From NCBI GenBank assembly GCA_027592755.1, contig JAQCLE010000008.1, positions 1 through 64,000 of the forward strand: 64,000 nt of DNA, read 5' to 3'. Positions 2,261 to 55,479 of this stretch are shown one piece after another. Origin of the DNA: Bacteroidota bacterium (GTDB lineage Bacteria > Bacteroidota > Bacteroidia > Cytophagales > Cyclobacteriaceae). Every line of letters begins with the position of its first letter. Position 1 is the first letter of the stretch. The translations under genes were made by a program, and so were the position numbers. A model generated the notes under the pieces. It was not told the origin of the DNA and searched no databases. It saw nothing but the letters and a program-made list of their open reading frames with translations.

Positions 2261-3685
2261 ATGATTGAAAATCTTGTTAACGATCCACTTTCCATATTAG
2301 CTGTTGGAATATTAGTCGTAGTTGGTGGGATAATTGGTCTCCGACTTCACGCATTTTTGGCTTTGCTCCTTGGGGCTTTTGTTGTTGCCATTTTGACTCC
2401 TGAAGCTGCAATAATATTATACGCAACCGGTAAAGGTGCCTCGCTAGGGGCTGCTCAAAATCTTGCCAGCCAAAAGGAGGGGATTCGCATCGCGACTGAA
2501 TTTGGAAATACATGTGGTAAAATTGGCATCCTGATCGCCATGGCTTCAATTATTGGTAAGACAATGTTGGAAAGTGGCGCAGCAGAAAAGATAGTAAGAT
2601 CTACCTTGAAAGTTACGGGTATTGGGAATGCACCGATTACTTTTCTGGGTAGTAGCTTTTTTATTGGTATTCCTGTTTTTTTTGATACCGTCTTCTATCT
2701 GATGGTTCCATTGGCCAAAGCCATGGCTATGCGGATCGGTAAGAATTATCTGCTTCTGATTTTATGTATTACAGCTGGTGCTGCCATGGCTAATTCGTTG
2801 GTTCCCCCGACTCCTGGTCCGCTGTTCCTGATCAGTGAAATGAACATTCCAATTGGTATGATGATGGTAGGCGGAACGTTGGTTGGATTGGTGACGATTG
2901 TTGCCGGTTATTTTTACGCCGCCTGGGCGAACAAAAAATGGCCAATTCCTTTAAGAGACTCTGCAGATGCCCCGTTGGAACAAATTAGAGAACTGTCCAA
3001 TAAAGATGAGAAGTCCCTTCCATCATTTTGGTCTTCACTTTTACCAATATTTATACCAATTGTATTGATTAGTGCCAATGCTTTTTTTAAAACTTTTAAT
3101 AATGAAGCGATATGGGTTTTAGATTTTTTCGGCGAAAAAAATATGGCGCTGGCGTTAGGAGCACTATCATCATTAATTCTTCTGGCTATTCAAAAAAAAG
3201 GTGATAAAAAAGGCCTTACTTCCTCAGTACAAACTGCCTTAATGAGTGCTGGCGTTATAATATTAATTACATCGGCCGGCGGGGCATTTGGAGCAATGCT
3301 TCAGCAAACGGGGATCAGTTTGAGAATTGGCGAGCTGACAAAAGACTATCAAATGGCATTGATTCCTTTGGCCTTTCTAATTACAGCAGTAGTGAGAACG
3401 GCACAAGGGTCTGCAACTGTAGCCATGATAACAGCATCTGGTATATTAGCGGGAATGGCTACTACAATATCATTGGAATACCACCAACTGTATATTGGGC
3501 TTGCAATTGCCTGCGGATCAAAACTTATCCCATGGATGAATGACAGCGGTTTCTGGATCGTATGTAAGATGAGTAACCTAACTGAAAAAGAGGCGCTTAA
3601 GACATTTTCACCCTTATTAATGATCATGGGGATAGTAGGGCTTATAGTAATTCTTATAGCCGCCAGTATTTTTCCTCTTGTTTAA
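2261..3685 (+). CDS. GntP-family gluconate/sugar-acid:H+ symporter
   Basis: An inner-membrane permease of 474 residues, with many hydrophobic segments across its whole length, in the size range of the GntP family (about 440-450) with a small excess in a hydrophilic loop near residues 225-250. Family features are the N-terminal block ILVVVGGIIGLRLHAFLALL, the segment EFGNTCGKIGILIAMASIIG, and the central SLVPPTPGPL motif. Known members carry gluconate, idonate, fructuronate or related sugar acids with protons. It starts at an ATG and is followed after 26 bases by a mannonate-dehydratase-like gene, which fits import of a uronate-derived acid. The exact substrate cannot be read from sequence. 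Confidence 0.9.
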   Translation: MIENLVNDPLSILAVGILVVVGGIIGLRLHAFLALLLGAFVVAILTPEAAIILYATGKGASLGAAQNLASQKEGIRIATEFGNTCGKIGILIAMASIIGKTMLESGAAEKIVRSTLKVTGIGNAPITFLGSSFFIGIPVFFDTVFYLMVPLAKAMAMRIGKNYLLLILCITAGAAMANSLVPPTPGPLFLISEMNIPIGMMMVGGTLVGLVTIVAGYFYAAWANKKWPIPLRDSADAPLEQIRELSNKDEKSLPSFWSSLLPIFIPIVLISANAFFKTFNNEAIWVLDFFGEKNMALALGALSSLILLAIQKKGDKKGLTSSVQTALMSAGVIILITSAGGAFGAMLQQTGISLRIGELTKDYQMALIPLAFLITAVVRTAQGSATVAMITASGILAGMATTISLEYHQLYIGLAIACGSKLIPWMNDSGFWIVCKMSNLTEKEALKTFSPLLMIMGIVGLIVILIAASIFPLV

Positions 3686-5916: not shown

Positions 5917-6693
5917 ATGAATATGCTTAATAAGCAGAAATATTATAGGGAACCATCTGTTTTCAGACCGGAAAATCTTCTACGAGAAGCAAGAAGGCAG
6001 AAATTGACCATGGATTGCAAGATCCCTGGTGTGTGCGTACTTGATCCTGATGGAGACATTGTAGATTTCCTGATCAAGTCTGGAAAGGCAACATTAAACA
6101 AATGCTGGTCTTGCTATCATACGCAAATGTATGAGTTTGATAATCAATGGATAAAGATTGGAATCATAGGTCGTGCTGTTGGCGCTTCATTTGCAGTTTT
6201 GTTGGCTGAACAAATGTTTGTCTCCGGGTGCGAATTACTCATCAGTATGACTTCTGCGGGCATTGTAACCCCCCCTCCAGAAGGTGCCAGGTTTATTTTA
6301 ATAGAAGAGGCACTAAGGGATGAGGGAACAAGTTACCACTACTTACCGCCAGATGAAACTGCGTCCATTGATACGGAACTGCTCAGTCAATTACAATCGC
6401 TGACTAGTAGAACAGACCTTGCTACTGCCATAGGAAACAGTTGGACCACCGATGCGCCATATCGTGAAACCAAAAGAGCAATTGAATATGCCAAAAGTAA
6501 AGGTATCACAGCTGTTGAAATGGAAGCCTCAGCTCTTTATGCTTTTGCCAAAGTTCGCAATAAACGCGTGGTCTGTTTTGCTCACCTTACCAACAACATG
6601 GCACAGGAGGGCGAAGATTTTGAAAAAGGAGTTGAGAGCGGAAGTCTTGATTCACTGGAAGTAATTTATCAGACAATTGCCTGTTTAATGTAA
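5917..6693 (+). CDS. Nucleoside phosphorylase family protein
   Basis: 258 residues of the PNP/UDP phosphorylase superfamily, which split nucleosides with phosphate to base and ribose-1-phosphate. Visible features are VGASFAVLLAEQMFVSGCELLISMTSAGIV (conserved domain core, given here as two adjacent blocks), the phrase GNSWTTDAPYRET, and AVEMEASALYAFA, the conserved glutamate-methionine-glutamate segment that contacts the ribose. ATG codons at 5917 and 5923 are both possible starts. The N-terminus (about 60 residues before the core) is longer than in short uridine phosphorylases. Its place in a sugar locus is unusual; it may act on another pentosyl compound. Confidence 0.8.
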   Translation: MNMLNKQKYYREPSVFRPENLLREARRQKLTMDCKIPGVCVLDPDGDIVDFLIKSGKATLNKCWSCYHTQMYEFDNQWIKIGIIGRAVGASFAVLLAEQMFVSGCELLISMTSAGIVTPPPEGARFILIEEALRDEGTSYHYLPPDETASIDTELLSQLQSLTSRTDLATAIGNSWTTDAPYRETKRAIEYAKSKGITAVEMEASALYAFAKVRNKRVVCFAHLTNNMAQEGEDFEKGVESGSLDSLEVIYQTIACLM

Positions 6694-55035: not shown

Positions 55036-55139
55036 AAGGCGCAAAGATAAAAGCAATATTTTCTCAGGGGAAAGAAATGATGAAATGGATAAAAGCGTGG
55101 GTATTATTGGTTTTTAAGCTATTTATTTTGCTTTAACAT

Positions 55140-55172
55140 GAAAAAAGCCTCAAATCAAAGATTAGAGGCCTT
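55140..55172 (-). terminator. Terminator downstream of tRNA-like gene
   Basis: GCCTC-A-AATC (55147-55156) pairs with GATT-A-GAGGC (55160-55169); on the minus strand the stem is followed by six or more T residues. It lies 31 bases past the encoded CCA of the tRNA-like gene and before glyS. Confidence 0.75.
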
Positions 55173-55202
55173 TCCAAATAAACAACATTAACCCAAAAAT
55201 GA

Positions 55203-55337
55203 TGGCTGTAGGGGAAGGATTCGAACCTCCACGAAGCGGTTAGCCCCAATCCTGGCCGTAAAAGCCGGGATCGGGATTTATCCCTTATCTTCACCCCCGA
55301 GAGAGGAGGGCATGTCTGCCAATTTCAACACCCTACA
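55203..55337 (-). tRNA. Atypical 132-nt Leu-like tRNA with CTC anticodon
   Basis: Acceptor TGTAGGG pairs perfectly with CCCTACA, followed by G73 and an encoded CCA. The D region (TTGAAATTGGCAGAC) is close to that of tRNA-Leu at 62605. Anticodon stem CCCTC/GGGGG with loop CTCTCTC reads CTC (a glutamate codon) although the body is class II. T arm GGAGG-TTCGAAT-CCTTC. About 62 bases separate anticodon and T stems and can fold into a branched arm (GAAG/CTTC base, GGGA-TAAA-TCCC hairpin, and a long hairpin with GATCCCGGC and GCCAGGATT). The encoded CCA contrasts with the other two tRNAs here. A terminator follows. Could be an orphan tRNA, tRNA-like regulator or decayed tRNA. Confidence 0.7.
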
Positions 55338-55430
55338 GTTTAGTTTTGTCCATTTGACAGATCAAAAGTAATGCCCATACTGTTTTGTTAAAAATATTTT
55401 AATAATTTTGGCAAAAGTTTCGATCTCATC

Positions 55431-55446
55431 TAACGATTCGTCGTTA
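55431..55446. promoter_or_regulatory. Palindrome upstream of Lrp gene
   Basis: TAACGATTCGTCGTTA: 6-base inverted arms around four bases, 33 bases ahead of the lrp-type ATG. Lrp/AsnC proteins commonly regulate themselves, so an autoregulatory operator is plausible. Confidence 0.45.
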
Positions 55447-55479
55447 TATTTATAATTCGTCATATAATTTTACCACCAA

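Follow-up and report, generated by a model that had tools for sequence, protein, structure and literature searches.

In staphylococci, a non-proteinogenic tRNA-Gly serves cell-wall bridges. The RNA described here would likewise be an aminoacyl carrier outside translation, with a different amino acid, body and partner. A second point of comparison is the indirect synthesis of asparagine by AspRS and GatCAB on tRNA-Asn, as in Deinococcus, Thermus and Bdellovibrio (PMC4206432, excerpt). The likeness lies in GatCAB together with the U1-A72 pair, and in genomes that also have AsnRS, often GlnRS, and from which asparagine synthetases are often missing (PMC4206432, excerpt). However, the carrier here is a separate, apparently non-decoding, tRNA-Leu-like molecule with an Asp-type loop and, unlike in the indirect systems, no archaeal-type second AspRS was seen in the source genome, i.e. 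the genome to which our locus belongs. According to the same excerpt, AsnRS, GlnRS and GatCAB occur together in 67 of 547 bacterial genera, and Bacteroidetes are among the groups that combine all three with no asparagine synthetase. One table row of PMC3927822 (excerpt) places 12 of 14 Bacteroidetes genomes in its last column, taken here as GlnRS without gatCAB. Finally, tmRNA shares tRNA-like ends with our RNA, and some phages carry both, but our RNA, unlike tmRNA, has an anticodon-like arm, and a coding part was not found in it. We found no description of such an RNA among the titles and abstract openings listed by searches of the open-access literature.

Structure, distribution and transcription signals of the RNA

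The gene was studied in a window of 64,000 nt, which is the whole stretch of DNA analysed (Table 1). ARAGORN made no call at 55203-55337 and found no tmRNA in the 64-kb window, and the Rfam tRNA model (RF00005) at gathering score made no call at these positions either. A permissive Rfam scan of 55050-55450 gave no match near a family cut-off, the best tRNA-type match being tRNA-Sec (17.1 bits, cut-off 47). A tRNA-Sec identity was rejected on this score, on an acceptor of 7 bp instead of 8 and on the absence of the UCA anticodon. A tmRNA was rejected as well, given the anticodon-like arm of the aligned members, the coding part that was not found and the negative ARAGORN search. The molecule nevertheless has canonical elongator tRNA features, namely the 7-bp acceptor, the 5-bp T arm and the CCA maturation signature.

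Several elements of the original prediction were recovered on the minus strand: the Leu-like body, the perfect acceptor (UGUAGGG/CCCUACA, 7 bp), the canonical T arm, the encoded CCA and a terminator hairpin with a T run after the gene. The announced length of 132 nt holds without the CCA. The first pair of the D stem is U-U in the source copy. Between the pseudo-anticodon stem and the T stem lie 63 nt (55231-55293), close to the predicted 62 or so; on the other hand, the comparative structure is one long arm and not the multi-branched arm proposed. By ORF reading, the gene is flanked by glyS on one side and by a divergent Lrp/AsnC-type regulator, followed by the suf operon, on the other. In the source and in relatives (L033, L034, L044, L046 and L049), an Lrp-type regulator and the suf operon often stand divergent to one of the copies, and an acyl-CoA-ligase-like gene comes next in several relatives, where the source locus has glyS (also by ORF reading).

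Table 1. Coordinates, within the window, of the tRNA-like gene, its structural elements and its transcription signals.
Feature	Position	Strand	Description
tRNA-like RNA gene	55203..55337	minus	135 nt with encoded CCA, 132 nt without
Acceptor stem, 5' strand UGUAGGG	55331..55337	minus	U1 = 55337; partner 55207-55213
Acceptor stem, 3' strand CCCUACA	55207..55213	minus	cells paired 100%, 36 sequences
G73 discriminator and encoded CCA	55203..55206	minus	G73 = 55206, CCA = 55205-55203
D arm	55312..55328	minus	3-bp stem, 91.7% of cells paired; Leu-type loop with GGCAG
Pseudo-anticodon arm CCCUC-CUCUCUC-GGGGG	55294..55310	minus	loop 55299-55305; loop consensus YNNUCYC; stem covaries
Long variable arm	55233..55292	minus	V1 stem 55289-55292/55233-55236; V1 99.3% of cells paired, compensatory changes
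Variable-arm internal loop	55277-55282 / 55240-55243	minus	V2 hairpin 55244-55276
T arm GGAGG-UUCGAAU-CCUUC	55214..55230	minus	cells paired 100%; canonical
Promoter -7-like element TACTTTTG (TANNTTTG)	55363..55370	minus	25 nt upstream
Intrinsic terminator GCCTC...GAGGC and T run	55141..55169	minus	read directly

A covariance model (R1) was built from 36 sequences, the source copy included, with a structure set by hand. It matches 55202-55337 with 127.1 bits, whereas ordinary tRNA genes reach at most about 63 bits. In the 36-row alignment, which was obtained by BLAST, 95.9% of the cells are paired and 13 of the 30 pairs show two-sided changes; sliding the partners left at most 57.7% of the cells paired and at most 5 pairs with two-sided changes. 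This alignment omits 5 of the 41 copies extracted, one being chimeric (L028 1088-1245) and the others near-duplicates of a neighbour. The 40 distinct rows found by the covariance model (41 rows in all) are paired in 95.2% of cells, with two-sided changes in 19 of 30 pairs, in an alignment fitted to the structure. The thermodynamic fold of the source sequence alone is not significant (z -1.4), so that the structural evidence is comparative. The RNA is thus a real, conserved tRNA-like family. Among the odd copies (L028:1088-1245 and L118:915-1056), one has the 5' half of its acceptor replaced and one has an insertion in the T arm.

From its base outwards, the variable arm consists of the 4-bp V1 stem, a helix of 2-3 bp, an internal loop NANAAA/CUAA and the variable hairpin V2. 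V1 occurs as GGAG/CUCC, GAAG/CUUC, GAGG/CCUC and GGGG/CCCC, while A-N-AAA and CUAA of the internal loop are nearly invariant. V2 varies in length; several short ones close with GNRA loops (by reading), and many long ones contain GGGUUGACCAC or a close variant (50 of 168 distinct genomic members and 57 of 61 distinct viral members). Both the base of the arm (one U before, GU after the variable stem) and the D loop are of the tRNA-Leu type, as compared with the tRNA-Leu of the source genome, from which the RNA differs by G73 instead of A73, U1-A72, C20, the YNNUCYC loop and a mostly much longer arm. Inspection ruled out an intron-bearing tRNA, since the pseudo-anticodon loop is followed at once by the 3' half of its stem. 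A substrate of SerRS, weighed for G73 and the long arm, was set aside since the arm base is of the Leu type (one nucleotide before, two after). Palindromes are not enriched overall in the variable arms of genomic members: those of at least 6 nt occur in 76 of 168 (shuffled 91) and those of at least 8 nt in 40 of 168 (shuffled 31, maximum 43). GAGCTC-type palindromes recur in these arms. Tandem copies within one genome may differ in arm type (L005, L028, L074, L084, L133). The arm type AAAGTCCAGCCTTTGGCG.CC is nearly identical in L005, L028 and L084, and resembles conserved isoforms.

BLAST found relatives of the RNA in 43 of 59 related genomes, and whole-genome searches with the covariance model also gave 43 positives, with members of at least 84 bits. 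Inspection added two genomes, i.e. G050, with a short-armed copy split at contig ends, and G048, with an 80-nt form devoid of the long arm (69.9 bits); the latter makes the score gap with ordinary tRNAs (up to about 63 bits) imperfect. The RNA is therefore present in 45 of 59 relatives, with transcription signals, which bears out conservation in sister species, one half of the check on which the original prediction had been staked. Calls of absence, in the relatives as in the phylum sample below, are provisional, as filters were strict, only some candidates were scored and short forms may be missed. No copy was found in the one other genome of the source genus (G001; 740 contigs, 91% complete). 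When the phylum was sampled evenly, the RNA was present at E 1e-15 or better in 40 of 395 genomes; they belong to the source's own family and order, to families f22, f23 and f26 of its class and, outside the class, to family f66. Named genomes scanned with a pattern gave at least 118 stretches, and among the 80 matches listed, 79 titles are Bacteroidota (by reading) and one is unassigned. Named carriers include Hymenobacter, Spirosoma, Dyadobacter, Algoriphagus, Pontibacter, Saprospiraceae and Chitinophaga. Many genomes have two to five copies, some in tandem.

The source copy has no clear -33 element, and the motif TANNTTTG upstream of it is what we take to be the Bacteroidota -7 element. Of 166 distinct genomic copies, 89 have this motif in the 70 nt upstream (shuffled mean 7.4, maximum 16), and 41 genomic copies have TTG at the right distance from it (shuffled mean 0.6). 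Terminator-like hairpins follow within 150 nt in 99 of 167 genomic copies (shuffled 1-4). These signals are rare at phage copies, as expected of genes within longer transcripts: 4 of 60 have the motif (shuffled mean 1.9), 3 of 60 the motif with TTG (shuffled 0.13) and 1 of 59 a terminator. Given the transcription signals that the RNA carries, its transcription is predicted.

Anticodon-like loop and identity bases

The loop reads Y-N-N-U-C-Y-C in 229 of 229 distinct members. Although two of our alignments were picked with a pattern that contains the loop, the two others were obtained by BLAST (36 rows) or by the covariance model (41 rows) without selection by the loop, and their distinct rows are all YNNUCYC too. 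The loop stays constant while its stem varies (CCCUC/GAGGG, CCGUC/GACGG, CCGCC/GGCGG, CCCGC/GCGGG, CUAGC/GCUAG in G048, and CCAUC/GAUGG and CUACC/GGUAG in phages). Among the 229 members, position 33 is U in 192, G in 19, C in 12 and A in 6; position 34 is G in 207, A in 12, C in 9, the source copy included, and U in 1; position 37 is U in 222 and C in 7. The combination of U33 and a purine at 37 that decoding calls for is thus found in no member. With position 37 never a purine and position 33 free, the RNA should not decode, and it probably cannot read codons. The Glu codon first assigned to this anticodon is accordingly not supported: position 34 can be any base, 37 is always a pyrimidine and a Glu anticodon is not conserved. 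For the same bases, the suggested orthogonal tRNA is unlikely in the decoding sense.

The bases of the molecule point to other partners. The main aspartate determinants are G73, G34, U35, C36 and C38, and the amidation of Asp-tRNA-Asn is permitted by U1-A72 and blocked by G1-C72 and U20a (PMC9976931, excerpt). U35, C36 and C38 are present in 229 of 229 members; G73, C74 and G2-C71 in 228 of 228, and U1-A72 in 225 of 228, the counts at the 3' end omitting one cut viral copy (L230) and identical bodies being counted once. Position 20a is A in 224 members and G in 5, never U. The AspRS identity bases G73, U35, C36 and C38 are therefore all present, G1-C72 being replaced by U1-A72, and so are the bases of a GatCAB substrate. 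As background, G73 in place of A73 means no leucylation.

In the source genome, 31 of 31 tRNA genes listed (30 of the 37 Rfam tRNA matches, L298-L327, plus the window) encode C74 straight after the discriminator, which makes C74 a CCA signature shared with the RNA. The full CCA is encoded in 19 of 228 members; the 31 listed tRNA genes rarely encode it. Among them, U1-A72 and G73 are combined only in tRNA-Asn, and the tRNA-Asp loop is CUGUCAC. By these bases, the RNA joins a loop of Asp type to an acceptor end of Asn type, within a Leu-like body. Asp identity together with U1-A72 predicted a tie to GatCAB, which we then tested via GatB.

Co-occurrence with GatB and with asparagine synthetases

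The presence of GatCAB was scored by GatB alone (TIGR00133). GatB is absent from 7 of the 59 relatives, all 7 without the RNA; it is present in 45 of 45 relatives with the RNA versus 7 of 14 without (Fisher P = 1e-5, phylogeny ignored). Within family f1 the figures are 31 of 31 versus 2 of 6 (P = 2e-4, phylogeny ignored) and, among relatives with GlnRS, in which GatCAB seems dispensable, 25 of 25 versus 1 of 7. In the phylum sample, GatB matches were found in 332 of 395 genomes (313 over the cut-off), including 40 of 40 genomes with the RNA, while 0 of 63 genomes without GatB have the RNA. Of the 41 GatB-positive genomes listed that belong to the class or are closer still, 37 are positive for the RNA by score and G048 on inspection, which makes 38; the exceptions are G099, G210 and G257. 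In genomes outside the class, GatB often occurs where the RNA does not, and most GatB-positive genomes there gave none. Both states are found inside families f1, f22 and f23, so that more than one loss coincides.

The source genome has bacterial-type AspRS, AsnRS and GlnRS together with GatB; GatCAB therefore looks unneeded there for charging. By contrast with GatB, GlnRS alone shows no association with the RNA (25 of 43 vs. 7 of 16; P = 0.39, before G048 and G050 were counted as positive). Neither the 322 loci fetched nor the 80 viral loci have a relative of gatB, aspS, asnS or glnS next to the RNA. An extra AspRS-like paralogue was considered and rejected: class IIb synthetase matches number about 3 per genome, with or without the RNA.

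As for asparagine synthesis, the source genome has no AsnA match and no match over the cut-off of the asparagine synthase B model. It has six AsnB-like matches; the five examined are all below that cut-off, the best at 352 of 499 bits. By ORF reading, their neighbours resemble genes for polysaccharide or acyl synthesis. We defined a dedicated asparagine synthetase as AsnA (G045 being counted, at 289.5 vs. a cut-off of 292.8 bits) or AsnB over the cut-off. Such an enzyme is found in 7 of 45 relatives with the RNA and 7 of 14 without (P = 0.014, a weak test that ignores phylogeny), and in 5 of the 7 relatives without GatB. In total, 52 of 59 relatives have either the RNA with GatB or a dedicated synthetase, and 7 have neither (G001, G008, G037, G038, G042, G049 and G057). 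AsnA alone shows no association with the RNA (P = 0.44, before G048 and G050 were counted as positive). However, the looser AsnB model TIGR01536 is passed in 53 of 59 relatives, so that a hidden asparagine synthetase is possible.

Phage copies and proposed role

Our pattern matches 91 viral stretches. Among the 80 viral loci listed, 79 give a member of at least 75 bits (one cut at a contig end) and the remaining one a 47-nt fragment only. At the 7 viral loci whose neighbours were searched, the families found include terminase, DNA polymerase, helicase, exonuclease, PhoH and ThyX, among others of phage type. ARAGORN finds a tRNA or a tmRNA in 49 of these 80 loci, and a tmRNA in 12 (hand count); one locus (L206) has 25 tRNAs, with tRNA-Asp and tRNA-Asn among them, and a tmRNA. 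The annotated phages and annotated plasmids that were queried gave no match to the RNA. With a looser pattern, which contains the loop, we found short phage forms, 87-110 nt long, whose variable arm is plain and has no internal loop. Since these forms and G048 lack the long arm, the conserved core consists of the acceptor end, the D and T arms and the loop. In 5 of 13 short-form phage loci submitted, ARAGORN names the RNA tRNA-Asp; in all, six short forms (five viral ones and G048) are called tRNA-Asp gtc or atc.

Phage segments after GACCAC contain a self-complementary stretch of at least 6 nt in 38 of 45 distinct cases (shuffled mean 10, maximum 18), as do 3 of 3 further distinct segments. 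The stretches span 6-12 nt, and 23 of 45 segments have one of at least 10 nt (shuffled mean 0.5). The palindromes are of 21 different sequences, e.g. GCGCGC, GCATGC, GCTAGCTAGC, GCCGGCCGGC and TCCTGCAGGA, 20 of them centred 5-8 nt past GACCAC. They are not enriched in host members (at least 6 nt in 5 of 44, shuffled mean 9; at least 8 nt in 4 of 44, shuffled mean 2.3). The same self-complementarity in differing sequences argues for RNA-RNA pairing of two copies. The phage RNAs may thus dimerise via their loops, related phages not being independent cases; the palindromes could possibly act at the DNA level instead. Some phage D loops have an extra hairpin or palindrome (L183, of 20 nt, L194, L217, L219, L242, L246). 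Another phage RNA that resembles tRNA-Leu, AGTCAGGTGGCGAAATTGGTAGACGC...CAGGTTCGAATCCTGTCCTGACTAC, whose middle is variable and which shows no clear anticodon arm, was seen at L192:7679-7830 and 6139-6262, L197:4907-5053 and L256:3000-3092 and 3170-3302, in two copies on some contigs.

We propose, with about even confidence, that the RNA is a dedicated non-decoding tRNA-like carrier on which AspRS and GatCAB make asparagine. The ordinary AspRS would charge it with aspartate, which GatCAB would amidate to asparagine on the RNA. The pyrimidine at position 37 and the free position 33 would keep the product off Asp codons, where asparagine would be a mistranslation. Asparagine would then be released or transferred, most simply into a free pool for AsnRS in bacteria without a dedicated synthetase; we know of no enzyme that releases asparagine from such a carrier. 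Phages would carry the RNA beside their tRNAs and tmRNA to sustain the supply of asparagine. The main weakness of this proposal is that position 34 is A, C or U instead of G in 22 of 229 members, the source copy (C34) included. The lack of the G1-C72 of bacterial tRNA-Asp also counts against it, and the AsnB-like proteins over the TIGR01536 cut-off could make asparagine.

The same identity elements and link to GatB would be expected of an uncharged scaffold or cofactor of an AspRS/GatCAB complex (transamidosome), held by the long arm. The size and conservation of this arm, with its nearly invariant internal loop, agree with such a role, and the self-complementary phage loops suggest oligomers. 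However, 228 of 228 members keep the C74 maturation signature, which speaks for a functional 3' end, and the long arm is absent from the short phage forms and G048; we consider a scaffold unlikely.

The RNA could also be a carrier of the same kind charged by GluRS, GatCAB then making glutamine. The C34 and U34 variants (source, L274 and others) match tRNA-Glu, a phage tRNA-Glu loop, CUUUCAC (L242:9491-9567), also has U35, C36 and C38, and some bacterial AspRS make Glu-tRNA (PMC6523644, excerpt). This reading is nevertheless improbable in view of G34 in 207 of 229 members and of GlnRS, already present in 25 relatives with the RNA. Glutamine is, moreover, made by glutamine synthetase.

Equally improbable is a decoy, i.e. 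a tRNA mimic that would soak up an anticodon nuclease or a modifying enzyme and that phages would carry to counter host defence. Its presence in phage tRNA arrays, its multiple tandem copies and its resemblance to an anticodon loop, the target of such enzymes, would fit, but the core of the host loop is invariant, unlike in an arms race, and the clustered neighbours of 20 partly annotated contexts held no recurrent candidate for a partner gene. A decoy does not predict the link to GatB. The regulator or aminoacylation sink of the original prediction may still apply, without predicting this link either.

We give little credit to a regulatory RNA without aminoacyl chemistry, acting on the ribosome (like tmRNA or in hibernation) or otherwise. 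The tmRNA at 12 of 80 viral loci is in keeping with it; yet the GatB link would be unexplained, and a conserved reading frame would find no place in an arm whose length varies freely. A true tRNA-Asp that decodes and merely has an unusual arm, as the ARAGORN calls of the six short forms would have it, is very improbable given Y37 in 229 of 229 members, a base other than U33 in 37 of 229, any base at position 34 and a canonical tRNA-Asp coexisting in the source genome and in several phages. Lastly, a decayed tRNA or an attachment-site relic, as once suggested and as non-recognition by tRNA finders might indicate, is refuted for all practical purposes by the conservation of the whole molecule in 45 of 59 relatives, by covariation and by the enrichment of promoters and terminators.

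What stands of the original prediction is a conserved RNA related to tRNA-Leu with a role beyond ordinary decoding, as supported by its conservation, its covariation and its YNNUCYC loop. The family is widespread, with long forms missed by the standard tRNA finder and some short ones perhaps named tRNA-Asp. It bears on the puzzle of why GatCAB is kept despite AsnRS and GlnRS (PMC4206432, excerpt). More tentatively, and with less than even confidence, it could be the first tRNA devoted solely to amino-acid biosynthesis, an Asp-to-Asn carrier that would replace asparagine synthetase in much of Bacteroidota and that phages would have taken up, as a homodimer with palindromic loops. If the carrier proposal is true, tRNAs can be dedicated metabolic carriers, the catalogues of tRNAs and of phage tRNAs have to be corrected, and asparagine auxotrophy in Bacteroidota may be wrongly predicted from gene content.
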